NCBI GenBank assembly: GCA_937925385.1
Contig: CALEWN010000091.1
Location: forward strand, 1-12,151
Length of the DNA stretch: 12,151 nucleotides
From: an uncultured Senegalimassilia sp.
GTDB lineage: Bacteria > Actinomycetota > Coriobacteriia > Coriobacteriales > Eggerthellaceae
Direction of reading: 5' to 3'
A model generated the notes under the pieces. That model searched no databases and was not told the origin of the DNA. It saw only the letters and a program-made list of their open reading frames with translations. Positions 89 through 12,151 of the stretch are shown here, piece by piece (within the stretch, counting starts at the first letter, position 1; each line of letters opens with the position of its first letter). The position numbers and the translations under genes are program-made.

Positions 89-2290
89 CTACCGCATATT
101 CTTATACAGGTACTTCAACCACTTATCTTGGAATTCCTGCTGGTCGTCAATGTAAACCCACTGCTCAAGGCTGTTGTCGTACACCAGACCCGTAGGCGTC
201 CAATTGTTGGCGTCCAGCGCGTCGCCGGTGATTTGCAGCTCCATCCAACCCTTTTCCGCGAGCGTTTCGTCCTTGATGCAGAAGTAGAAATACCGCGTGC
301 GGTCGGTATCCTGCATGGAAAGCATGCTGTCCGGATACTCCGCAGCGTCGATGTTCGGCGCACCGGTCAGCGCGGTAGCCATAACGTCGACGTTGTCCAC
401 GGCCACCTGCGACACCTGCAGCGGCCTGGAAGCGTCGGTGCTCGACTGCGCGGGCTTGACCAGCATGACCGGGCTCATGACCAGTTCGTTGTTGATGCAA
501 TCGAAGTTCGACTCCGAACGATAGCCATGATCGGCGGTGATGATGATGGTGGCATCGTCGTACACGCCCAGCTGCTTCATCTGTTCGATGTACTCGCTTA
601 CGATGCGGAACGATGCGCGCGTCTGCGTCACGCGGTCGCTGTTGTCGGAAAGTTGCGCGTCGGCATCCAGGATGTACGGGTAGTGTGGGCCATTCAGGTG
701 AATCAACCTGAACGAACCCGTGCTGTCGTTGTCAACCACGCTTAGCTTCTGCGTAGACGACAGCTTCTCATAGAAGCCGGCGTCGTTGGTGATGTACGGT
801 GTGGTATCGATCTGATAACCCGACTCCGTGGTTTTCGCGTCGCCAGAATCGCTGTCGGTGGTGCCCATAGCAACATTGATCTCATCGGTGTAGAACCAGA
901 AGAATGGCTTGAACGCCCACGGCAAATCGCGATACATCGCGCACTTCCACAGCGCCGTGCGCGTTTCGGCGGCATTCGGTTTGATAACGTCAGCGCATTC
1001 CCCGCCGTCCTGCAAGCCGTTAATCGTGTGCTCGTAGGTATCGGGGGTGGTGCCCGGAATCATATCGCTGTACAGGCCAACGTCATAGCCCGCGTTGTCC
1101 AAATCGGCAAGGTAATCGGTGTTTTGCGCCTTTTCGTTGTTGGCGGAATCGGAATGCGGCGCGTTAACCTTGCCCGTGATCAGCGCTGGCAGCGCCTCGC
1201 GCGTGGGGGAAATGCCCGGCGTTGAATTCTGAAACCAGGTGAAGCCGGTCATCTCCGACAGCATGGACGGATCCTGCTCGAGTGCAGGCATGACATCGGT
1301 CTTTGTGTCGCAGCCGTCCAGGATGAACACGACGACGTTGTTCTTTTCCGTTACGTTCATCATACCGGTTTCGGTTACCAGGTAATTCGCGTCGTTGCTT
1401 TTGTTGGTTTCGTTGCCCACGAACAGGCTGGCCAGGCCAACGCCCTGCACCAGCACCAAAGCCACCGAAAGGAACAGCGAACCGAACTGCACCATCTTGC
1501 GGTTCAGCTGGCTGAGCAGCCACGGCAGCACGGCAATAACCACCCACACGCCGGTGGAGATGACCATGATGGTCTTGTACTGCGTCCAATCGACCGTGGC
1601 GCCCGTTGCCGTAGGCAGGCCGCCGTTGAAGCCCATGACCTGCACGTAGCATGCCAGGCCCGCACCGAACACCAGCAGCGCAGCCGCATTGAACACCTTG
1701 CCGCGCAGCGCGCTCAGCACCAAGCCGAGTGCCAGCGCAATCAAGATGCCGGGGACCAAAAAAATGGTCCACGTGCTTGACAGGCCGAACAGCAGGCTGC
1801 TTTCGTTGCCTGCGATGATTTCGCAAGGAGCGATGACCAACACGGTGAACACGGCGAAGAACGATACCGCCATGCCAACCGCCAAGCGCATGACACACTT
1901 CGGCGCATAGCCACTCGGGCGATCGGCGCGCGCCGCATGCGAACCGGCGCGCGAGACGCGGCCATGCTGCTCCGCTTCATCAGCAGCCGTGTACACCACA
2001 TTGCCCGATACGTCAACGCGGTGGACGCGGGGCTCATGTTCCTTGCGGGCATTTTCGTCAACCCCCAAGGCGTTCAGCAGCTTCTTGCGCGTGCGGCGGA
2101 ACGCCACACCGAGCACCGTGGACAGCGCCACGGCCACGCCGGCCACCGCCTGGATGGCATATGTCATAACCGACGGGTCGACGTAAGCGTATGCCGGGGT
2201 GATGAACGCGAACGACAACACCACGGCAACCGCAAACAAGGCGAGCGCATCGTACGCGTACACGCAAGCGCGAGGCAGCACCTTATTCAT
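89..2290 (-). CDS. Polytopic membrane protein with extracellular sulfatase/LTA-synthase-like domain
   Basis: A 733-residue protein of the alkaline-phosphatase/sulfatase superfamily, the fold shared by sulfatases, LtaS and phosphoethanolamine transferases. An N-terminal hydrophobic segment ending PAYAYVDPS is followed by several membrane helices (about 40-63 and 133-310). The catalytic domain spans about 318-640. Visible motifs are FILDG (metal-ligand Asp325), SPTREALPALITG with Thr363 as the likely nucleophile, HLNGPHYPY (His531, His536) and ITADHGY (Asp587, His588). Thr rather than Cys/Ser in a CxPSR motif points to a phosphotransferase (phosphoglycerol or phosphoethanolamine-like) rather than a sulfate-ester hydrolase, but the substrate cannot be read from sequence. 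I chose the ATG at 2290 because AGGAAGGTGG lies just upstream; longer versions lack such a site. It overlaps the end of the YidC-TagF gene by 8 bp, implying translational coupling and a joint role in envelope polymer synthesis or decoration. Confidence 0.85.
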   Translation of the reverse strand: MNKVLPRACVYAYDALALFAVAVVLSFAFITPAYAYVDPSVMTYAIQAVAGVAVALSTVLGVAFRRTRKKLLNALGVDENARKEHEPRVHRVDVSGNVVYTAADEAEQHGRVSRAGSHAARADRPSGYAPKCVMRLAVGMAVSFFAVFTVLVIAPCEIIAGNESSLLFGLSSTWTIFLVPGILIALALGLVLSALRGKVFNAAALLVFGAGLACYVQVMGFNGGLPTATGATVDWTQYKTIMVISTGVWVVIAVLPWLLSQLNRKMVQFGSLFLSVALVLVQGVGLASLFVGNETNKSNDANYLVTETGMMNVTEKNNVVVFILDGCDTKTDVMPALEQDPSMLSEMTGFTWFQNSTPGISPTREALPALITGKVNAPHSDSANNEKAQNTDYLADLDNAGYDVGLYSDMIPGTTPDTYEHTINGLQDGGECADVIKPNAAETRTALWKCAMYRDLPWAFKPFFWFYTDEINVAMGTTDSDSGDAKTTESGYQIDTTPYITNDAGFYEKLSSTQKLSVVDNDSTGSFRLIHLNGPHYPYILDADAQLSDNSDRVTQTRASFRIVSEYIEQMKQLGVYDDATIIITADHGYRSESNFDCINNELVMSPVMLVKPAQSSTDASRPLQVSQVAVDNVDVMATALTGAPNIDAAEYPDSMLSMQDTDRTRYFYFCIKDETLAEKGWMELQITGDALDANNWTPTGLVYDNSLEQWVYIDDQQEFQDKWLKYLYKNMR

Positions 2291-4220
2291 CGCGACCACC
2301 TTCCTCGTTTTCCTCGTCCTGCTTGATAAGCACGCGCTCAAGCAGATATTCACCGGCAACCTCGGCCGCATGGCCCAGATTGAAAATCATCTCGTCACGC
2401 ACGGCCGACACCTTCTCCGACCAAGCATTGGGATGCGCGATCATCTCGGCGACCGCATCGCCCAAGCCCGACAAATCCGCAGGATCGAACGAGCGGCCCA
2501 CCTTGTTGCGCAACGAAATGTCCGTGGGCTCGATGCCCAGCTCGCGCCAATCAGGGTTGCCCACCTTCATGGGCGTGTTGATGAACACGCTCGGGCGCAG
2601 CGTGGAGAACGAGAACTCGCAGAACACGCTGGACCAGTCCGTAATCAACACGTCGGACGTAAACACCGTATCATTCGAAGAGAAATCGCGCTCGAAGTAC
2701 AAGTCGGATTCAGGCACATGGGAATAACGCTCGATCAACGCCATCCAACGAGGACGATAACGTTTCGTGTATTCAGGGTGCGGGCGCACGATAACCTTCC
2801 AGCCACGCCCCAGCAGCTGCGACAGCAACGCATCGGCGCAGGAATCCAGCAGGTTGTCCTCCTGCCACGAGGGCGCCACGATGACAACCGGGCGCTCGTT
2901 GGTCATCTTGCCGGCCGCACGACGAGCGGCCATGGCGGCCACATCATCATCCAGCAGGTCATAGCCGCATTCCGCAAGGTTCTTCGCCGGAAGCTGGTAC
3001 AGCTGTTCTTCGCGACGCAGCTCGGCAACCTGGTGCGGGCCGACGCACAGCACCGTATCGTAGTGGTCGTACGCCTGCTTGGACGGCGTCAGGTGCATAG
3101 ACGTCATATGGTGCGGCATGAACACGTATTCGGTATCTTTGCGCACATACGAACGTTTGATGTAGTAGTTGTCCAAATCCTCCAAGGTGGACACCACCAC
3201 GTCAGCGTCCATCTTCATCATGAGCGTGATGGAGCGCTTCTGGCCGATGTAATACGGCTTGATGCGCGGCTGCTGTTCGGCCAGCGCAAAGATGCGGTCG
3301 TTCGGGTCGTTTGTGATGTAATGGATGTTCACGTCGGAGTTCGCCAGCAAATAATCGATAGCACCCTTGAAGTATTTATAGAAGCCCGAGCCCTCGGAGT
3401 AGAACACAACGTGCTTGCCGGCAATCTTGAAGAAGCGCTTGTAATCCGCACGCTCGCGTTTGGTGAGCGGATCGCGCTTCCACCACGGGGTTTTGCGCTC
3501 GGCCTCAAGCGCCTCAAGCGCCTCGATTTCGGTGCGGCTGGCGGCCAGGTCCTCGTAGTCGATGTGCTTGGCCGGCACGATGCAGATGTTCATAAGCGCC
3601 TGAATGGCAATGGAGGACAGGTTCGAGCAAATCCAATAGAAGCACATGCCCGCGGAGACGAACACGCCAAGAATCAACGATAGGCCGATCGACAAACCAT
3701 TGGTAGTGTTTTTCTCGGCTCGGGACTGCTCGCGCTGCAGCGGGTTGATACGGTTCTGGGCAAAGCCCATCGCTACAGCCGAAAGCCCAGCAAGCAGCGG
3801 CATAATCCAAGACATCCCGCCATCGGTAACCGGCACCATACCTAAAAATTCCGTGCCCGGAGCACCGTTATCGGTGATGGAATGGATGACGTCGACCAAA
3901 CCGAACAGGATGATGACCTGCACCAACAGCGGCACCATGGAAAGCAGCGGATGATAGTGCTTCTCCTTGAACACCGCCTGCTGCTTTTCACCAATGGCCT
4001 CGCGGTCGCCATAGTACTTCACTTTGATGCGGTTGATCTCGGGCATCACGTTCACCATGACGATCGAGTTCTTTTGAACCCACAGCGACATGGGCAGCAG
4101 AACGACCTTCGTAATGAGGGTGAACAGCAAAATGGAAATCCACCAGTTGCCCGTTAAGGCATAGCATGGCTGCACGATAAGCTGCAGCACATCGGCCACA
4201 GCCGAAAAGATCGCATCCAT
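2283..4220 (-). CDS. YidC/Oxa1 insertase domain fused to TagF-like CDP-glycerol glycerophosphotransferase
   Basis: A two-domain protein of 645 residues. Residues 1 to about 220 match YidC/Oxa1: helices at about 28-48, 93-112, 137-155 and 172-215, with a charged cytoplasmic hairpin (about 50-90) after the first helix. There is no lipoprotein signal. A charged Glu/Ala/Lys linker (about 225-260) leads to a teichoic-acid glycerophosphotransferase-like domain (about 265-635). That domain has HVVFYSEGSG (from 270), PHHMTSMHLT (His370, His371), RPHPEY (His481) and the family signature TDWSSVFCEFSF (Asp528). TagF-type enzymes add glycerol-phosphate from CDP-glycerol to a growing chain at the cytoplasmic face, which fits the cytosolic position of a YidC C terminus. 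Lys38 sits where most YidC proteins have a groove Arg. A TTG codon immediately before the ATG is an alternative start with better spacing from AGGA. First gene of a two-gene operon. The polymer made is unknown; the donor could be another CDP-alditol. Confidence 0.88.
   Translation of the reverse strand: MDAIFSAVADVLQLIVQPCYALTGNWWISILLFTLITKVVLLPMSLWVQKNSIVMVNVMPEINRIKVKYYGDREAIGEKQQAVFKEKHYHPLLSMVPLLVQVIILFGLVDVIHSITDNGAPGTEFLGMVPVTDGGMSWIMPLLAGLSAVAMGFAQNRINPLQREQSRAEKNTTNGLSIGLSLILGVFVSAGMCFYWICSNLSSIAIQALMNICIVPAKHIDYEDLAASRTEIEALEALEAERKTPWWKRDPLTKRERADYKRFFKIAGKHVVFYSEGSGFYKYFKGAIDYLLANSDVNIHYITNDPNDRIFALAEQQPRIKPYYIGQKRSITLMMKMDADVVVSTLEDLDNYYIKRSYVRKDTEYVFMPHHMTSMHLTPSKQAYDHYDTVLCVGPHQVAELRREEQLYQLPAKNLAECGYDLLDDDVAAMAARRAAGKMTNERPVVIVAPSWQEDNLLDSCADALLSQLLGRGWKVIVRPHPEYTKRYRPRWMALIERYSHVPESDLYFERDFSSNDTVFTSDVLITDWSSVFCEFSFSTLRPSVFINTPMKVGNPDWRELGIEPTDISLRNKVGRSFDPADLSGLGDAVAEMIAHPNAWSEKVSAVRDEMIFNLGHAAEVAGEYLLERVLIKQDEENEEGGRDE
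2296..2305 (-). promoter_or_regulatory. Ribosome binding site fixing the sulfatase-like gene start
   Basis: Minus-strand AGGAAGGTGG ends 5 nt before the ATG at 2290. It lies inside the last codons of the upstream YidC-TagF gene, so the downstream gene is probably translated by ribosomes arriving from the first. This decides the start at 2290 over upstream in-frame candidates. Confidence 0.7.
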
Positions 4221-4424: not shown

Positions 4425-7400
4425 CTACACAAGCTCACCGTGGGCCGCGTCGATCGCAGACATGAGCGCTCTCATCTTCCAGTTGTTCTGCCAAATCTCG
4501 TTGGACATGATCACGCACACATACGGATGGTCGCCATCCATTACCAGGTAGCCCTCGTTATGGACGTTGGTGCTGCCGTTAACCCAGCCGGACTTCGCGT
4601 AGATGGGCACGCCCTTCCACGCCAGCTCCTGACGCGAGTAGATGGCGATGTTGTTGCCGTACACATCACGCGCCCACCAGGCGTCCTGCTCGTTGCCCAT
4701 CAAGTAGTCCGCCATGCCAACCCACAGCTTGCACAGCTGGCGCGGCGTGTACCACACGTAATGCGACGAATAATCAAAGCCCCAGGCATGCGTCCAATCA
4801 ACGAACCAGTCAAGTGTCGACGCACCCAGGTTGTTGCGCAGCTCCGCATACGCCTCGTTGCTAGACACGTTAATGGTGTTGTACAGCGTGTCGCCCCAAC
4901 TGTTGAGCAGCCACGGCTTGTACTTTAGCAGCGACATGACATAGGGGCCCTTGATGGTGCTCGCGCTGTAGAAGTAGTTGTCCATGCCGTAGGAGACGCT
5001 GGCGCCAGAATACAGGTCGATCATCACGAACCCGACGGAATAACCCTCGTTCTCATAATTGCCGATGGCCTTGTAGATGCGATCGACCGTGCCCGAGGAC
5101 ACGCCGTCGAAGCTGCGGTACACGTTCAGACCGCTGCCGCTGAGGGAATCGAGAATCTTGATGCGATCGCTAAAGCTCATGGTATTGCCGAAAGACGTTT
5201 CAACGAAATTCCAACCCTGGAACGGGCTTGCAGCGTTCATCTTGCGCAGCACGATGCCGCTTGCATTGTACGAACCCATGGTGGACAGTGCGTAGTTGCC
5301 CAAAAGCGTCTGGAACATGATGCCGCCCTTGCCGTTCCACACCGCGCACCATTTTTGGTTGTCGGTACCGTACCACCAATTCTGCCACACGATCGCATCG
5401 TCGTCAGCTTTGGAGTTCGCCACCTCCAAAACACGCTGCGACCACACGTTCGTGATGCGGTAGATGTCATCGCCTAAGCTGGTGACCAGCCATTTCTGCG
5501 TGTAGGAACCATCCTGCTCCCACACCTCGGCGTATGCCTTGTTGCTCAGGCTGGAGCCAACCATCTCAAGCGCGTAGTCGCCGTCGTCAAACGAGGTGAT
5601 CAAGTACATGCCGCTGTTGAGCAGCGTGGTTTTGCGCAGGGTCCAGCCGGCGCCCACCAGCTGGCCAGCGCTGCGGTACGCGCGAACGCTGGGGTCGGAA
5701 GAAGCCAAACGCAGCGCCAGCACATACGTGCCATCTGCCGACACGATAGCGAAGTGGCCATCGTTGGTGGGAACCATCTTCCAACGCATGGCGTTGGCGG
5801 CGGAAACATCCTGCTGGCACACCGTACCATCAGCAGATACGCCCAGGTAGCAGCCGGAAACCATGGCGGCAATTAAGTAGGTGCCGTCACCGTTTTCGGT
5901 GATCATGTACTTCTGCGCCATGGAATCGTTGGACGCGTAGCCCTGCAGCTGCGCGCCATCAGCGCGCGAGCCGGACGCCACGTCGAGCACGATGCGGTCG
6001 CTACCGCGGTTGACGATCTCGAACCTGCCGCCGTTATACACGGGCGTAGTGGCGATCAGGCGAAACGCCTGCGCGATGGTGCCGTTACCCTCGTAAATCT
6101 GCACCTTGGTGCCATTGGCGGTGGAACCCGCCAGCACATCGAGCACGCGCCCGCCGAATGCAGACTTCAGCGCGAAGGTGCCATCAACGTTCTTGATGAT
6201 GGTCCACAGCTGCTCGGAGCGGCCGGTGAACCCGTACAGCTGCACCGGGGTGCCATTGGCATCGCTGCCGGCAACGGTCAGCGCCTTGCCAGACGCATAG
6301 CTGACGATGTAGTAATAGCCGCTCCACTCGTCGTACTTGACCGCATAGGCCTGAGCCACGCTGTTATTGGCTTCGTAAATCTGAATCTGCACACCATCTT
6401 CTGTCGAGGCAGCTTCCACATCAAGCACGGCGGACGCACCCGAAGCCATGCCGATGACATAGGCGCCGTCTTCAAAGGAAGCCGTGCAACGGTTCAGCAC
6501 CCATTGCTGCAGCGCGTTCTCGCGCTGCTTCTTCAGCACCACGTTAGCCGCATCGGATACGTCGGTGGCGTCTACCGTCATCAGCAAACCGCTCTTGTAG
6601 TTGACGAAGCAATAGCGGATGGTGCCGTCTTCGCCTTCGACCTGGCGGATATACCACAACTGCGCCTCGGAGCCGTTGAACCCGTATTGGGAAACGTTGG
6701 TGCCGGAAGAGGTTTTGCCGCCCTGCGCCTCAAGCACGCGGCCGGAACCGATATTGGTGATGCAGTAAATCCATTCGTGATTTGCATCGCGCCCCACGTT
6801 GGTGATGCGGAATCGCTGGGACGTAGACTCATTGCCCTCGTAGATCTGAGCGTTGCCCTTATCCGCCATAGAACCGCCCGCAATATCGAGCACGCGATCG
6901 GAGCCGATGCCGAGAATGTAGGCACCGTCCTCGATGCGCTCATACTGAGATGGGTCAACGGCATCGCCGGCATTGCCGACTTCGCCTGCACCCTGCGAAG
7001 GGTCCGCGGGCGCAGCAGGCTGGCTGTCGCCATTAGCGGGCGTCGGCGCCGTGCCTTGCCCGTCGCCATCAGCGGGCACGGGTGGCTGGTCAGCCGCAGA
7101 CTCGCCGGGCTGCGTTGCGGACGTGCCGCCAGTATCATCGGCGCCTTCGCCTTCCCCGGCCTGCACAACATCGGAAGCGACAGGCTGCGTCGCGACATCA
7201 CGTGCGGAAGCGTCAACCCCGGCTGTTTCGCCGGCAGAAGGAACGGCGGCGCTCACATCGGAGGCGTTTTCCGACGCGCCCGCCAACACTTCTTCGGACC
7301 GCGCATGCTGCGCCGCATGCGCGCCGCCTGCCTGGTTGTCATCTGCCCATGCGGGGGCTGCCCAGAACGCCGCGCATGCCGCCGCAAGCGCAACGGCGCA

Positions 7401-7448
7401 GCATACTTGCCCAAGCCCCGCACATCGAATGCGCACTGCATGACTCAT
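4425..7448 (-). CDS. Secreted ricin-type lectin repeat protein with C-terminal beta-lactamase-fold serine hydrolase
   Basis: About 1007 residues. Residues 1-36 form a signal peptide ending AAPAWA-DD. Residues 37-165 are a low-complexity Ala/Asp/Gly/Pro spacer typical of wall-crossing stalks. Residues 168-752 contain twelve related units of about 48 residues, each with a Gly-rich VLD/VLE core and a QLW, QQW, QKW or QAF-like end, as in RicinB_lectin_2 beta-trefoils; twelve units would make four trefoils. Residues from about 760 form a serine-hydrolase domain with the three penicillin-recognising motifs in order: STIK (Ser830, Lys833), SSN (862-864) and KSG (952-954). No ExxLN deacylation motif appears between SSN and YTPRQL, so a DD-peptidase-like or non-enzymatic role is more likely than beta-lactamase activity. 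No LPXTG or membrane anchor is present, so wall retention presumably relies on the lectin units. The ATG at 7448 is preceded by GAGGAAG; a GTG one codon upstream is also possible. Monocistronic between its own promoter and terminator. Confidence 0.87.
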   Translation of the reverse strand: MSHAVRIRCAGLGQVCCAVALAAACAAFWAAPAWADDNQAGGAHAAQHARSEEVLAGASENASDVSAAVPSAGETAGVDASARDVATQPVASDVVQAGEGEGADDTGGTSATQPGESAADQPPVPADGDGQGTAPTPANGDSQPAAPADPSQGAGEVGNAGDAVDPSQYERIEDGAYILGIGSDRVLDIAGGSMADKGNAQIYEGNESTSQRFRITNVGRDANHEWIYCITNIGSGRVLEAQGGKTSSGTNVSQYGFNGSEAQLWYIRQVEGEDGTIRYCFVNYKSGLLMTVDATDVSDAANVVLKKQRENALQQWVLNRCTASFEDGAYVIGMASGASAVLDVEAASTEDGVQIQIYEANNSVAQAYAVKYDEWSGYYYIVSYASGKALTVAGSDANGTPVQLYGFTGRSEQLWTIIKNVDGTFALKSAFGGRVLDVLAGSTANGTKVQIYEGNGTIAQAFRLIATTPVYNGGRFEIVNRGSDRIVLDVASGSRADGAQLQGYASNDSMAQKYMITENGDGTYLIAAMVSGCYLGVSADGTVCQQDVSAANAMRWKMVPTNDGHFAIVSADGTYVLALRLASSDPSVRAYRSAGQLVGAGWTLRKTTLLNSGMYLITSFDDGDYALEMVGSSLSNKAYAEVWEQDGSYTQKWLVTSLGDDIYRITNVWSQRVLEVANSKADDDAIVWQNWWYGTDNQKWCAVWNGKGGIMFQTLLGNYALSTMGSYNASGIVLRKMNAASPFQGWNFVETSFGNTMSFSDRIKILDSLSGSGLNVYRSFDGVSSGTVDRIYKAIGNYENEGYSVGFVMIDLYSGASVSYGMDNYFYSASTIKGPYVMSLLKYKPWLLNSWGDTLYNTINVSSNEAYAELRNNLGASTLDWFVDWTHAWGFDYSSHYVWYTPRQLCKLWVGMADYLMGNEQDAWWARDVYGNNIAIYSRQELAWKGVPIYAKSGWVNGSTNVHNEGYLVMDGDHPYVCVIMSNEIWQNNWKMRALMSAIDAAHGELV

Positions 7449-7498
7449 CACACCACTTCCTCTTCGAAATCGGACGAATAACCTTATCGATTACCCCG

Positions 7499-7504
7499 AG
7501 TATA
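7499..7504 (-). promoter_or_regulatory. Putative -10 element of the ricin/serine-hydrolase gene
   Basis: Minus-strand TATACT lies about 50 bp upstream of the start codon and is followed by CG. No good -35 hexamer is visible at normal spacing, so this rests on the -10 alone. Confidence 0.35.
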
Positions 7505-7670
7505 AAGCTAACTGCACCATGAACCGGCCGAAATCAAGCACGCTTCGGTGAGGAACGAAAAGTTCTTGCGCGCATGCGAAAACCAATATGCCAAACGCAT
7601 GTTTTCCCAGTTAAATCGACCAAAAACCGGCAAGTTGCGCCACTGCGGCGCAGCAGAGCGCCAGTTGCGA

Positions 7671-7676
7671 TATACT
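7671..7676 (+). promoter_or_regulatory. Putative -10 element of the CWB2 gene
   Basis: TATACT in the context TTGCGATATACTCG, about 130 bp upstream of the start codon. No clear -35 at 16-18 nt. Transcription from here would give a leader of about 125 nt containing both hairpins described below. Confidence 0.35.
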
Positions 7677-7693
7677 CGCTGCCAAGCAAGCAC

Positions 7694-7727
7694 ATGCGTG
7701 GGCAGACGCACCCGGCCGCCCACGCAT
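7694..7727 (+). promoter_or_regulatory. Leader hairpin 1 upstream of the CWB2 gene
   Basis: A perfect 10-bp inverted repeat, ATGCGTGGGC (7694-7703) and GCCCACGCAT (7718-7727), with a 14-nt loop. The loop contains a second ACGCA (7706-7710) that could instead pair with TGCGT at 7695-7699, giving a competing smaller hairpin. There is no T tract, so it is not a terminator. It could be an RNA leader structure or a DNA operator dyad. Confidence 0.6.
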
Positions 7728-7746
7728 CATGACCCCGATCGCGGCT

Positions 7747-7780
7747 CACTGGAACACCGTACCTGACCCCTGTTCCAGTG
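7747..7780 (+). promoter_or_regulatory. Leader hairpin 2 upstream of the CWB2 gene
   Basis: A perfect 10-bp inverted repeat, CACTGGAACA (7747-7756) and TGTTCCAGTG (7771-7780), with a 14-nt loop. It ends 14 nt before the ribosome binding site AAAGGA (7795-7800). The stem sequence is unrelated to hairpin 1, but the 10-14-10 geometry is identical. Confidence 0.6.
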
Positions 7781-7807
7781 CAAGCGACCACACGAAAGGA
7801 CGGTTTC

Positions 7808-8920
7808 ATGAGCACTGTCAGCCGATTTCGAAATGCCTGCCTCGCGCTGTGCCTGGCAACCTGCACATGCGCGCCCGGCGTCGCCTGGGCCGCCGACGCA
7901 TCTGCCGATGCTGCCGGCGCAGCCAAAGCGTCGCCGATCACCCGCCTGAGCGGGGAAACCAGCGCCGAGACCGCGCAGGCCATCGCCCTTGCAACATTTA
8001 GCAAGGCGGACACCGCCATCTTGGCAACCGACAACGGCTTCGCCGACGCTATGAGCGCCACGGGGCTTGCCGGCGCGCTTGACGCGCCCATCCTGCTCAC
8101 GGGCAGAGACGAGCTTTCACCGGCGGCGCGCGACGCCATCGAGCGCCTGGGCATCACCAACGTCATCATCGTGGGCGGCGGCGCCGTCATCTCAAGCGAC
8201 GTGGCGTCCGACGTTGCCGAACTACTGGGCGTTTCGGCGAAAGATGTCGAGAACAATCGCTTGTACGGCAACGAGGCCGAGGACACCTCAGTCGCCTGTG
8301 CTGCCGAGCTCACGCGCCTGAATGGGCCGCAAGACAAAGCCATCGTCACTTCGTCGGTGAACTTCCAGGATGCGCTTTCCATCAGCTCATTCGCCTATAA
8401 GTACCAGGTGCCGATTTTCCTTGAGTCCGCCGGCGCCACCTCGGCCGATCGCGCGCTGCCCGACCTGGCCATCACCATGCTCACCGGCAAGGGCTACTAT
8501 TCCGCATCCGAGGTGTACGTGCCGGGCGGCCCCGGCGCCGTGTCCAAGGAGTCGGTCGAAAACACGCTGGGCAGCCGCAGCTACACCCGCATGTACGGCA
8601 ACGACGGCTACGACACGTCCAACGCCATCGCAACGTATATGGTTGAAAAGGGCCTGCTGGTCGCCGACAACGCGGTCATCGCCTGCGGCGCTGAAGACGC
8701 AAAGGGCACCGACGCCATCGCGGGCGCGGCGCTTGCCGGAAAGAACGGCAGCGTGGTGCTGCTGACAAACGGCAATGCGAAGCTCGAAGACAAGAACACC
8801 GTCACCATCGACGACTTCTTGACGAGTAACGCCTCCGCCGTTGAAAAGACTTACGTACTCGGCGGTACGTACGTGTTCCCGAACTCGCTCGTGGATCAGA
8901 TTTCCCAGCTAATCGCCTAA
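7808..8920 (+). CDS. Secreted protein composed of three cell-wall-binding repeat 2 (CWB2) domains
   Basis: 370 residues. A signal peptide occupies residues 1-28 (cleavage near VAWA-AD). The mature protein is essentially three CWB2 repeats (PF04122-type) starting near ITRLSGET, NRLYGNEAED and YTRMYGNDGYDT. Each has a segment such as ATDNGFADAMSATGLA followed by PILLTG-like and VIIVGGGAVIS-like strands; the last ends TYVLGGTYVFPNSLVDQI. In clostridial wall proteins three CWB2 units form a trimeric module that anchors the protein non-covalently to an anionic wall polymer. Here no separate effector domain is attached, so the protein may be a bare wall binder, a partner for other proteins, or an S-layer-like component. 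The ATG at 7808 has AAAGGA 7 nt upstream; an in-frame GTG at 7778 lies inside leader hairpin 2 and is unlikely to be the start. Only plus-strand gene in the window, followed by its own terminator. Confidence 0.88.
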   Translation: MSTVSRFRNACLALCLATCTCAPGVAWAADASADAAGAAKASPITRLSGETSAETAQAIALATFSKADTAILATDNGFADAMSATGLAGALDAPILLTGRDELSPAARDAIERLGITNVIIVGGGAVISSDVASDVAELLGVSAKDVENNRLYGNEAEDTSVACAAELTRLNGPQDKAIVTSSVNFQDALSISSFAYKYQVPIFLESAGATSADRALPDLAITMLTGKGYYSASEVYVPGGPGAVSKESVENTLGSRSYTRMYGNDGYDTSNAIATYMVEKGLLVADNAVIACGAEDAKGTDAIAGAALAGKNGSVVLLTNGNAKLEDKNTVTIDDFLTSNASAVEKTYVLGGTYVFPNSLVDQISQLIA

Positions 8921-9600: not shown

Positions 9601-10155
9601 CTAAACCACCATCACATGGCTCACGAACTGCGGATCGTCTCTCCAGGGCTTAACTGTGCCCTGGGCCAACGTTGCCGGCAAATCGATGATGCGCTGGTTC
9701 GACGACCCCCTGAAGCGCAGCGTGATGTCGTGGTGCGCCTGCACAAACGGGCCGTCCACCAACACATCGATCGCCGCAAGCAGGCGATCGGTCACCTCGG
9801 TATGACGTGCGCTTTCGGGGTTCTGCAAATCCTCAAGCAAATCACCCGTGTAACACCAAACCGTCTTCCCAGGATACGTTTCGCGCACGCGCTCGACGAA
9901 ATCAACCAATGCGCGCTGGTTTTCCGGCTCCATGGGCTCGCCGCCCAAAAGGCTCAAACCGTCGACATATTCCGGTGCCAGGCTCTCGAGAATCTCATTC
10001 TGCACCTCAGGCGAAAACGGCTTCCCCGCAGTGAAATCCCACTGCTCGGGGTTGAAGCAACCCGGGCACCCATGACGGCACCCCGACACGAACAGGCTAG
10101 TGCGCACGCCCTCGCCGTTGGCGATATCGAAATATTTGATCTCAGAGTAATTCAT
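9601..10155 (-). CDS. nrdG: Anaerobic ribonucleoside-triphosphate reductase activating protein
   Basis: A 184-residue radical SAM protein that installs the glycyl radical on the class III ribonucleotide reductase NrdD, allowing dNTP synthesis without oxygen. It starts MNYSEIKYFDIANGEGVRTS, the usual NrdG N terminus. The 4Fe-4S/SAM motif CRHGCPGC places Cys26, Cys30 and Cys33 in a CxxxCxxC arrangement, followed by FNPEQWDF. LSLLGGEPMEP is the SAM-binding GGEP motif, and VWCYTGDLLEDL is also typical. The ATG at 10155 fits the family length; extending upstream adds about 40 unrelated residues. The Shine-Dalgarno is weak (GGTGGGAT next to the ATG). NrdD is usually encoded just upstream, but here the upstream neighbour is an FMN oxidoreductase, so the partner must lie elsewhere. 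I see no NrdR box in the 219-bp upstream gap. Confidence 0.93.
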   Translation of the reverse strand: MNYSEIKYFDIANGEGVRTSLFVSGCRHGCPGCFNPEQWDFTAGKPFSPEVQNEILESLAPEYVDGLSLLGGEPMEPENQRALVDFVERVRETYPGKTVWCYTGDLLEDLQNPESARHTEVTDRLLAAIDVLVDGPFVQAHHDITLRFRGSSNQRIIDLPATLAQGTVKPWRDDPQFVSHVMVV

Positions 10156-10289
10156 ATCCCACCAGCCCCATTCGCATAGCACAGCAGCGGTATCAACAAG
10201 TTGGTTGCATCCATCATGATTCTTCGCCCCGCTACACGCAAGCCCTACCACCCGCGTTCCGGCAAGCGGCTGCATCCGCGCAGATCAAA

Positions 10290-10323
10290 AGCCCGCAAAG
10301 AGCTCGCGTCGAAGTGTGACGCG
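10290..10323 (-). terminator. Weak candidate terminator after the FMN oxidoreductase gene
   Basis: On the minus strand CGCGTC-7 nt-GACGCG (10305-10323) is followed by AGCTC-TTTGC-GGGCT, a second small stem, and TTTTGATC. Both stems are short, but they lie about 50-85 bp past the stop codon in an otherwise featureless gap. Confidence 0.3.
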
Positions 10324-10374
10324 TAAGCACCGCAACCCATCTGGAAACAGCCTCCAACCGCACTCGGGCTGGCC

Positions 10375-10959
10375 CTATTCCCCAATCAGCTGGGGGATAC
10401 CGACGATCGCAGCAGCCACCGCTGTGTCAACATCGGTGGTAGGCACGTCGGTTGCATTGGCGCTGATGCAGTCAGCGGCACCGATGCCGTACACCTTCGC
10501 CAGACCCTTCACGTTCTGCCAGCCCAGGTCCTGCTCATCGGTCGCAAAACCACCGCGCGTTGTAATGTAATGCAATTTGCTAGCTCGGCACATCCCAACG
10601 GGACCATGATCGGTATAGCGGTTCACAATGCCCACAACGCTGATGTGCTCGAAATACACCTTCAGCAATGCCGGGTAAGCGCCCTCCCAAAACGGCGCGG
10701 CAATGACGATCTCATCCGCCTCCGCAAACTGATGAGCAAAATCAAACATGGCGTCGTCATAGTCCCCCGCGTAACGCAATTCGTTGCGACGCGCCAACGT
10801 CTTCGAAGTCAACGGAAGAAGGCCCAAGTCTTCAAGAACCAACTGTTCAAGAACGTATTCACCGGTAGACAGCAAATGCTCAACCAAAGCATCTGCGATT
10901 CGCTTCGTACGCGAAGTCTCACGCAACACGCAACTATCGATATACAGCAACCTCTTCAT
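10375..10959 (-). CDS. FMN-dependent NADH-azoreductase/quinone reductase family protein
   Basis: A 194-residue protein with the flavodoxin-like fold of the AzoR/NQO family (PF02525-type). These are cytosolic FMN enzymes that transfer two electrons from NAD(P)H to quinones or azo compounds. The N-terminal strand and phosphate loop read MKRLLYIDSCVLRETSRTK. The second flavin-contacting segment is AAPFWEGAYPALLKVYFEHI (Pro89, Trp91), followed by RYTDHGPVG. The third is HYITTRGGF (Thr133-Gly137), in the same order and spacing as AzoR. Length is close to that of Escherichia coli AzoR (about 200). The ATG at 10959 starts the conserved strand and follows GGTGGGA; upstream in-frame codons add no recognisable sequence. 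It may run into nrdG on the same strand across a 219-bp gap, but that distance and a weak hairpin argue for separate transcripts. The physiological substrate cannot be told from sequence. Confidence 0.85.
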   Translation of the reverse strand: MKRLLYIDSCVLRETSRTKRIADALVEHLLSTGEYVLEQLVLEDLGLLPLTSKTLARRNELRYAGDYDDAMFDFAHQFAEADEIVIAAPFWEGAYPALLKVYFEHISVVGIVNRYTDHGPVGMCRASKLHYITTRGGFATDEQDLGWQNVKGLAKVYGIGAADCISANATDVPTTDVDTAVAAAIVGIPQLIGE

Positions 10960-10975
10960 CAGTCCCACCAATCTC

Positions 10976-11004
10976 AATATGCTCGAATTCAACCGTCTCG
11001 CCAA
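10976..11004 (-). promoter_or_regulatory. Possible promoter of the FMN oxidoreductase gene
   Basis: On the minus strand TTGGCG (plus 10999-11004) is followed after 17 nt by CATATT (plus 10976-10981). Each matches 4 of 6 consensus bases. It lies immediately upstream of the GGTGGGA ribosome binding site, giving a very short leader. Confidence 0.35.
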
Positions 11005-11123
11005 CGGTACCACGCCTTAACTCAAACCAAACAGCAAACCGCAAAAGCTTATGCGGGGAAAGCCAGCAAACTGACCAATGCACCATACATCGGCTCATTG
11101 GAAGGAACAATCCAAAATACAAA

Positions 11124-11155
11124 AGCGGCTTGCCGGACGCAACCGACAAGCCGCT
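11124..11155 (-). terminator. Strong minus-strand intrinsic terminator
   Basis: AGCGGCTTG (11124-11132) and CAAGCCGCT (11147-11155) pair perfectly. After a single C-A mismatch, CGG/CCG pairs inside, leaving a 6-nt loop. On the minus strand TTTTGTATTTTGG follows. It faces transcripts coming from metY, 223 bp past that gene's stop codon, or from an unannotated small RNA between them. Confidence 0.85.
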
Positions 11156-11377
11156 CTTACACCCCATGGAACCATTCGATGTCATATGCGCAAATGACTG
11201 AAGATATCAACTAGTCACATCTCGACAGCATCGCAACGAACATCTTGCAACACACAAAGGCGCCTATAGCCCCTGAAACGTAACCGCAAAAGTCTAGACC
11301 AGTTACCCTCAAGCACAAATCAGACAACAGCCATTGAAGCAAGCGCAAACCTCCCACTTGCCTGCGGCCAATCAGCC

Positions 11378-12151
11378 TTACACCGTTGCGAGCGCCTGCT
11401 CCAGATCCGCCAGCAAGTCGTCAGTAGACTCGATACCGCAGCTCAAACGCACCATATCCGGAGAGATACCGCAAGCCACCAGCTCCTCATCATTCATCTG
11501 ACGATGCGTGGCGTTAGCCGGATGAAGCACGCAAGTGCGAGCATCGGCAACATGCGTGGCAATCTGAGCCAGCTTCAGGCTCTTCATAAACTGCTCAGCG
11601 GCAGCACGACCGCCCTCAAAACCGAAGGAAACAACGCCGCACGTCCCGTGGGGCATGTACTTTTGAGCCAACTCATAGTACGGGTCGCCCGCCAAACCCG
11701 GGAACCTCACAAAGCTGATCTTCGGATGCGCCTGCAGGAACTCGGCAGCAGCCTGACCATTCTTGCAATGCTGAGGCATGCGCACATGAAGGCTTTCCAA
11801 ACCAAGATTCAGAATGAAGGCATGCTGAGGGCTCTGAATCGATCCGAAGTCGCGCATAAGCTGCGAGGTGCATTTCGTGATGAACGCGCCGCCCTGGCCA
11901 AATTTCTCAGCATACACAACCCCGTGATAGCTCTCATCAGGAGTCGTAAGCCCAGGGAACTTGTCGGCATGCGCCATCCAATCGAACGTACCTGCATCAA
12001 CGATACAGCCGCCAACGCACGCACCATGCCCATCCATATACTTAGTAGTGGAGTGCGTAACGATATTCGCACCCCATTTGATCGGATTGCAGTTCACCGG
12101 CGTCGGGAACGTATTATCCACGATCAGCGGCACGCCATGAGCATGCGCCGC
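11378..12151 (-). CDS. metY: O-acetylhomoserine aminocarboxypropyltransferase (sulfhydrylase), C-terminal part
   Basis: The C-terminal 257 residues of a PLP-dependent Cys/Met-metabolism enzyme that joins O-acetyl-L-homoserine with sulfide to form homocysteine in methionine synthesis. The 5' end lies beyond the right edge; the first visible codons read AAHAHGVPLIVDNTFPTP. The Schiff-base lysine is in HSTTKYMDGHG (visible residue 37). ESYHGVVYAEKFGQGGAF, RDFGSIQSPQHAFILNLGLE and RMPQHCKN are MetY-specific rather than cystathionine gamma-synthase-like. DARTCVLHPANATHRQ and RLSCGIESTDDLLADLEQAL form the C-terminal substrate-binding part. Full-length family members are about 425-440 residues, so roughly 170 are missing only because of the window edge. 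The reading frame is intact with a normal TAA stop. The next gene downstream is unrelated, so it is probably transcribed alone or as the last gene of an operon outside the window. Confidence 0.92.
   Translation of the reverse strand, partial: AAHAHGVPLIVDNTFPTPVNCNPIKWGANIVTHSTTKYMDGHGACVGGCIVDAGTFDWMAHADKFPGLTTPDESYHGVVYAEKFGQGGAFITKCTSQLMRDFGSIQSPQHAFILNLGLESLHVRMPQHCKNGQAAAEFLQAHPKISFVRFPGLAGDPYYELAQKYMPHGTCGVVSFGFEGGRAAAEQFMKSLKLAQIATHVADARTCVLHPANATHRQMNDEELVACGISPDMVRLSCGIESTDDLLADLEQALATV

Follow-up and report, generated by a model that had tools for sequence, protein, structure and literature searches.

The TagF and TarL proteins of PF04464 are described as poly(glycerol-/ribitol-phosphate) polymerases. 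Lipid headgroups serve as donors for LtaS and related enzymes, and LicA, LicC and LicD are names that we take to belong to the lic phosphocholine pathway. Small proteins with a single membrane segment are of the kind that YidC inserts. In liposomes, purified E. coli YidC is stated in a preprint (PMC10491306) to be among the insertases that "all scrambled lipids robustly", and the downstream steps of bacterial phosphonyl tailoring are described as remaining enigmatic (PMC6697681). For a protein of YidC-TagF-type architecture, no description was found in the titles and abstract openings of open-licence PMC papers.

A protein of this architecture is encoded in the window, the whole stretch of 12,151 nucleotides from an uncultured Senegalimassilia sp. 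that was analysed here. It overlaps the gene for a partner protein, which was absent from the account given in an earlier note on this DNA. The features of both genes are as follows.

2283..4220, minus strand: YidC-Glyphos fusion protein of 645 aa, in one frame
3588..4145, minus strand: YidC/Oxa1 (60KD_IMP) domain of the fusion, from Pfam/NCBIfam, alignment and structure match
3426..3587, minus strand: charged linker joining the two fusion halves, placed on the cytosolic side as predicted from YidC topology
2583..3425, minus strand: Glyphos_transf (TagF-family GT-B) domain of the fusion by Pfam, with the fold extending to about residue 636
3111..3113, minus strand: H370 codon, aligned with the histidine of the WHG/WHA/WHS motif of canonical PF04464 proteins
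2778..2780, minus strand: H481 codon in the RPHPE motif, invariant in 37/37 rows of alignment A2
2637..2639, minus strand: D528 codon in the TDWSS motif, invariant in 37/37 rows of alignment A2
2283..2290, minus strand: overlap of the fusion stop and the partner start, 8 bases, ATGAATAA
89..2290, minus strand: partner protein of 733 aa, with a signal-peptide-like segment, the YVDPS module, about five more hydrophobic segments (by eye) and an LtaS-like domain
2000..2185, minus strand: YVDPS module, a transmembrane segment and a basic tail with a VDEN motif, probably oriented N-out/C-in
365..1330, minus strand: alkaline-phosphatase-superfamily domain (PF00884) of the partner, 26 bits against a cut-off of 25

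Outside these two genes, the upstream neighbour (4425-7451, minus strand) encodes a protein of 1008 aa, in which seven stretches of RicinB_lectin_2 are combined with a Beta-lactamase2 domain (PF13354) at the C-terminus. The protein encoded at 7778-8920 (plus strand) has three CWB2 repeats for cell-wall binding; domains of this type bind anionic wall polymers in Clostridioides. In the segment 9601-12151 lie genes for an NrdG activase and for a flavoprotein resembling FMN reductases/azoreductases, as well as the end of a gene for an enzyme of the O-acetylhomoserine sulfhydrylase type.

The earlier note had proposed a single protein in which a YidC/Oxa1 insertase is fused to a TagF-like transferase tethered at its cytosolic end, and this architecture was confirmed. 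The 645-aa protein scored above cut-off for both 60KD_IMP (PF02096, 100.7 bits, cut-off 35) and Glyphos_transf (PF04464, 41.9 bits, cut-off 22.1), and its first half also matched TIGR03592 (yidC_oxa1_cterm, 89.0 bits, cut-off 84.3), placing that half inside the YidC/Oxa1 family. The fold of the YidC half is close to that of YidC 3wo7. The structural matches of the transferase half are headed by TagF, level with other GT-B folds. The two halves are joined by a linker with pLDDT of 67 and 62 for residues 231-240 and 241-250, respectively, and the YidC topology predicts the TagF-family half to be on the cytosolic side. Residue K38 of the fusion aligns with R366 of E. coli YidC, presumably the groove arginine, and is at least 90% conserved across the 37 rows of alignment A2 (hand-picked rows from 36 of the 80 loci described below, and the window), indicating a positive groove residue. 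In the transferase half, H370, invariant in 37/37 fusion rows of the same alignment, and H481 and D528 align with four canonical PF04464 proteins, in which we assume their equivalents to be catalytic; the histidines and the TDxS motif are thus present, and PDB titles name TagF variants at H444 and H548.

The fusion is a widespread family and is not peculiar to one genome. Of 7998 candidates scored in a protein search, 5129 matched, and both domains are present in 119 of the 120 matches listed. Scanning species-representative genomes yielded 239 confirmed relatives, and the best 80 of these were combined with the window into a set of 81 loci. Judged by record titles, the 80 loci are mostly from Coriobacteriia, plus Clostridia (Oscillospiraceae, Lachnospiraceae and others) and one Solobacterium, and many of the carriers in the two classes came from gut samples. 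The records of L054 and L055 (54% and 51% identity) are titled Victivallales and Planctomycetia, pointing to horizontal transfer or misbinned contigs. An assembly artefact, with a stop or frameshift between the halves, was ruled out: both halves share one frame in 81/81 sequences, no interruption is present in the window, and among the 80 relatives L012 alone has an in-frame stop. One fusion relative of 1347 aa (P0170) also bears the repeat domains PF13306 and PF13855, which we take to be leucine-rich repeats. Some family members were named merely "membrane protein insertase YidC" by annotation pipelines.

How often the fusion occurs in Coriobacteriia was determined with 196 evenly drawn genomes from the class of G001 (a Gordonibacter). 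The fusion-type transferase was detected in 33 of them (E < 1e-160), each time in an open frame of 638-1430 aa, and the other transferase matches (G154, G172 and G206) represent a distinct type of 417-454 aa. A second survey covered 293 genomes from the class of G017 (an Angelakisella): the fusion type was found in five, one having an internal TAA, the shorter transferase type alone in eight, and both types in G383. The fusion is the sole PF04464 match above cut-off in 14 of 16 Coriobacteriia fusion genomes, the exceptions being G003 (one extra) and G015 (none). Some fusion members fall below the PF04464 cut-off, L049 with 16.7 bits, or go undetected, as in G015 and G021.

Separate yidC copies were counted in 22 fusion genomes. 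All 22 carry at least two PF02096 proteins, one of them a canonical-size YidC, ruling out the fusion as the sole yidC of its genome. In a tree of hand-picked rows from 28 loci and the window together with 12 canonical rows, two of which are long-branched, the 29 fusion YidC rows form one clade (support 100/100) apart from the canonical rows, and this clade sits beside two clostridial canonical YidCs (support 97/96). The separate 100/100 clade also rules out a recent duplicate of the host yidC.

The overlap of 8 bases makes translational coupling of the fusion and the partner likely, as judged from the gene arrangement. The partner begins with a signal-peptide-like segment ending in AYA, followed by YVDPSVMTYAIQ.., a helix and the basic tail. 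In profile searches the partner matched phosphonate monoester hydrolase (4upk, 2e-12), LtaS (2w5r, E 1e-10) and PbgA (1e-6), and with the NCBIfam LtaS equivalog it scored 15.5 bits, below the cut-off of 970. Residues D325, T363, H536, D587 and H588 are invariant in 22/22 rows of alignment A3 (21 hand-picked locus rows and the window); a further alignment, A6, comprised hand-picked rows of 17 loci and the window. From this pattern T363 is a candidate nucleophile and the D/DH residues a putative metal site, consistent with the Thr-nucleophile branch of the alkaline-phosphatase superfamily. The LtaS-like partner was found in 33 of the 196 Coriobacteriia genomes, and these are identical to the 33 fusion genomes, the other 163 having neither (Fisher 3e-38, with kinship ignored). 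According to the coordinates, it lies within 600 bp of the fusion or in the same frame in 32 of the 33 genomes, and elsewhere in G135. In L001, L002, L032 and L040 a single fusion is followed by the LtaS-like partner in two or three tandem copies.

The small YVDPS protein, for which no curated model was found in Pfam or NCBIfam, is the one part of the system that lies outside known families. In Coriobacteriia the YVDPS stretch forms the N-terminus of the partner, and in clostridial loci a stand-alone protein of 61-104 aa is encoded near the fusion. Variants were detected by tblastn in L058, L066, L068 and L069, and no YVDPS protein was found near the fusion in L064. The family gave 5663 matches among 7998 scored candidates; a Pfam domain was present in 0 of the 120 matches listed, whose few names read "hypothetical protein" and, once, a type VI secretion term. 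Three copies searched against Pfam gave only matches below cut-off (the best being DUF2108, E 0.0016, and Inovirus coat B, E 0.0085), and 13 copies searched against NCBIfam gave only two stray matches. Ten YVDPS columns are invariant in 13 aligned rows, including the Y, D, P and S of YxDPS, the I-D of the IDEN motif and an arginine that follows the helix. In an AlphaFold model of L049 residues 1-760, the YVDPS helix (693-728) was placed with low confidence, and the tail (741-760) has pLDDT of 87-92.

The modules occur in several orders. A search with the four-module protein of L049 gave 71 proteins, classified by regular expression: 25 are YidC-Glyphos-YxDPS-sulfatase (the YidC motif being missed in two), 18 are sulfatase-YidC-Glyphos (the YidC motif being seen in 11, and PF02096 listed for all 18), 14 are YxDPS-sulfatase, and the last 14 are incomplete or of other kinds. 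Beyond these, L081, L082 and L049 encode YidC-sulfatase proteins of 929-989 aa, of which the YidC domains form a separate clade (3 rows, 100/100). In L049 and L082 the next gene encodes a Glyphos protein anchored by YIDPG, giving two pairs.

L049, 14268-18335: YidC-sulfatase and YIDPG-Glyphos pair
L082, 2172-6408: YidC-sulfatase and YIDPG-Glyphos pair

By their composition these pairs appear to be a second, parallel version of the same machine. Such repeated reshuffling of one set of modules strongly indicates that they function jointly.

A gene for headgroup activation was found in 31 of the 81 loci, ten of which match by construction because the donor query proteins were taken from them, and no nearby donor gene was found in the other 50. 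The positive loci include 15 with phosphonate genes, 12 with LicC-LicA, five with NTP3-CobD and two with TagD (one weak), three loci being counted twice. For loci of at least 15 kb, a donor gene is present in 23 of 49 and none in 26, and in 20 arbitrarily chosen 20-kb stretches, taken from nine of the same genomes, no donor gene was found. The 12 kb of the window contain no gene for LicC-LicA, PEP mutase/cytidylyltransferase, NTP3-CobD or TagD. In clostridial loci, PEP mutase carrying one or two fused nucleotidyltransferase domains (TIGR02320, 402 and 414 bits; TIGR03297, 458 bits), phosphonopyruvate decarboxylase and an iron alcohol dehydrogenase adjoin the fusion, and by its gene content this set is predicted to be a CMP-phosphonate pathway. 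PEP mutase scored above cut-off in four of 34 Coriobacteriia fusion genomes (TIGR02320) and in eight of 22 mixed genomes (PF13714). At other loci NTP_transf_3 is joined to a CobD-like enzyme; the NTP3-CobD query from L065 gave mostly weak partial matches, carrying little information on Coriobacteriia.

Near some Coriobacteriia fusions, LicC-LicA-type proteins (NTP_transf_3 and choline kinase) are encoded, in L051 together with an EamA transporter. Among the 196 genomes, LicC-LicA (E < 1e-40) was detected in 31 of 33 fusion genomes against 32 of 163 others, and LicD in 31 of 33 against 50 of 163, kinship being ignored in both counts. In 10 of the 33 genomes, no more than 10 kb separates LicC-LicA from the fusion. 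Because LicD is present in 31 of 33 fusion genomes, it could be LicD that consumes the CDP-choline. G138 and G157 have no LicD match, and in these genomes the distance between the transferase match and the start of LicC-LicA is 4.7 and 8.2 kb, respectively; G104 and G110 carry the fusion and LicD with neither LicC-LicA nor PEP mutase. TagD scored above cut-off in three of 22 fusion genomes (one of the 16 titled Coriobacteriia), so that CDP-glycerol as the general donor was not supported; at E 0.001 some TagD match appeared in 10 of the 22, seven of these ten under cut-off only. As to CDP-ribitol made via a second IspD/TarI, a strong second IspD match was found only in G009 and G018, the weaker ones lying mostly in frames of 460-550 aa. 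L064 (Anaerotruncus) carries two divergent fusions, at 6760-8655 (minus strand) and 10016-11854 (plus strand), one beside TagD (205 bits, above cut-off) and the other beside phosphonate genes. To judge from these neighbours, they would form a natural donor-specificity pair.

The fusion and its partner are probably part of a widespread machine that both makes and exports surface decorations containing phosphate or phosphonate. A transferase using CDP-headgroups in the cytosol and an LtaS-like enzyme with its active site expected outside need a component that crosses the membrane. Since LtaS-type enzymes draw headgroups from lipids, a headgroup carried by a lipid is the simplest intermediate, and lipid scrambling by YidC as reported in the preprint (PMC10491306), taken together with this cytosolic/extracellular enzyme pair, forms the basis of a relay model. 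A nucleotidyltransferase encoded elsewhere would supply a small CDP- or CMP-activated headgroup. In Coriobacteriia, among them the likely source of the window, this would probably be CDP-choline or a related alkanolamine compound, and in other carriers possibly CMP-phosphonate, CDP-aminoalkanol or CDP-glycerol. The cytosolic TagF-family half would then move the phospho- or phosphono-headgroup onto a membrane acceptor, most likely a lipid; the YidC-fold half and the YVDPS transmembrane module would pass the polar headgroup across the bilayer by scrambling; and the LtaS-like partner would take it from the lipid on the outside and transfer it to a surface glycan or glycolipid. We infer the donors from their gene families, and propose the lipid acceptor, the scrambling role and the order of steps. 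The identical genome sets of fusion and partner, the module shuffling, the proximity of donor genes in part of the loci and the conserved catalytic residues argue for the relay. Against it stand the donorless loci, LicD in 31 of 33 fusion genomes, the gene content of G104 and G110, LicC-LicA in 32 fusion-free genomes, the inflation of co-occurrence by kinship, the members that score below the PF04464 cut-off, and the low confidence of the YVDPS helix in the four-module model, which leaves any contact with the YidC groove hypothetical. On balance, the chance that the fusion is the membrane-embedded transferase of such a two-sided surface-decoration relay, with all four steps together, appears to us about even.

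If the YidC half were instead a working insertase for its own partner, it would insert the YVDPS protein or the LtaS-like partner and hold it by the transferase. The stand-alone YVDPS protein has the right size and a single clear transmembrane segment, and some of its copies begin directly with MLLYIDPS and lack a signal peptide; the genes of fusion and partner overlap, and the fold near 3wo7 retains a positive residue at the groove position. However, a canonical-size YidC accompanies the fusion in all 22 genomes, many YVDPS copies carry a signal-peptide-like segment, and the four-module proteins would have the client covalently within the insertase; we hold this reading to be unlikely. A mere membrane anchor or scaffold, positioning the transferase and transporting nothing, would agree with the common use of fusions for tethering and with the stand-alone transferase relative that is held by a single YIDPG helix instead. 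One helix suffices for an anchor, whereas the five-helix fold is retained across Coriobacteriia and Clostridia, K38 is conserved in the 37 rows, and the proteins of a separate clade have a YidC-type domain joined to the sulfatase partner as well, making a pure anchor improbable.

The earlier note had interpreted the protein as a TagF-like CDP-glycerol polymerase that couples polymer synthesis to membrane insertion or export. The leading, though tied, position of TagF among the structural matches and the TagD gene beside one L064 fusion are in line with a polymerase, but TagD is scarce among fusion genomes and the neighbours indicate CDP-choline-type or phosphonate donors; choline and 2-aminoethylphosphonate offer no hydroxyl for chain extension. 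The suggested link to export is supported by the presence of an LtaS-like partner in exactly those 33 of 196 genomes that carry the fusion. CDP-glycerol polymer synthesis did not hold as a general function, in view of TagD in three of 22 genomes, LicC-LicA in 31 of 33 and PEP-mutase pathways at 15 of 81 loci, and we consider this interpretation very unlikely.

Returning to the two-sided relay, a tentative extension, which we are inclined to doubt somewhat more than to believe, is that the YidC fold has been recruited as the flippase or scramblase of a four-module transmembrane relay, joined covalently or genetically and comprising an LtaS-like transferase outside, the YVDPS helix, the YidC groove and a transferase for CDP/CMP-headgroups, in which custom phospholipids or phosphonolipids would be made inside and their headgroups spent outside. 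The process would be the export of lipid-linked headgroups and not protein insertion, and in these bacteria it would be a candidate for the transfer step that phosphonyl and phosphocholine tailoring still lack. A headgroup flippase would be a new use of the YidC fold, and Coriobacteriia and Clostridia may thereby have a route to display phosphocholine- or phosphonate-like groups. If true, the relay would also offer a physiological use for the lipid scrambling that the preprint describes for purified insertases (PMC10491306), and phosphonyl tailoring would gain a concrete candidate for its downstream steps, as these are presented in PMC6697681. For annotation, the bare insertase label of some members is a point of caution.

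Compared with the TagF/TarL polymerases, the fusion carries a YidC domain, scores just 41.9 bits with PF04464 and is associated with indications of other CDP or CMP donors. It differs from the YidC/SpoIIIJ/Oxa1 insertases in forming a separate clade, in being an additional copy in 22/22 genomes and in the attached transferase. The partner resembles LtaS and other Thr-nucleophile phosphotransferases in its profile match and in the invariant D, T and DH (22/22 rows); unlike LtaS, it has the YVDPS module in front or adjacent and shares its genome set with the fusion. NTP_transf_3 and choline-kinase proteins near the fusion recall the lic pathway, but here the candidate transferase is the fusion and not LicD, two fusion genomes being devoid of a LicD match. 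The phosphonyl-tailoring clusters with PntC (Rice et al. 2019, PMC6697681) share the PEP mutase-nucleotidyltransferase fusion and phosphonopyruvate decarboxylase that flank 15 of 81 fusion loci; in contrast, the main text of that paper mentions YidC, glycerophosphotransferase and sulfatase 0 times, and cluster genes of this kind are absent from the 12 kb of the window. We regard the system as a variant of the known phosphotransfer systems for surface tailoring.
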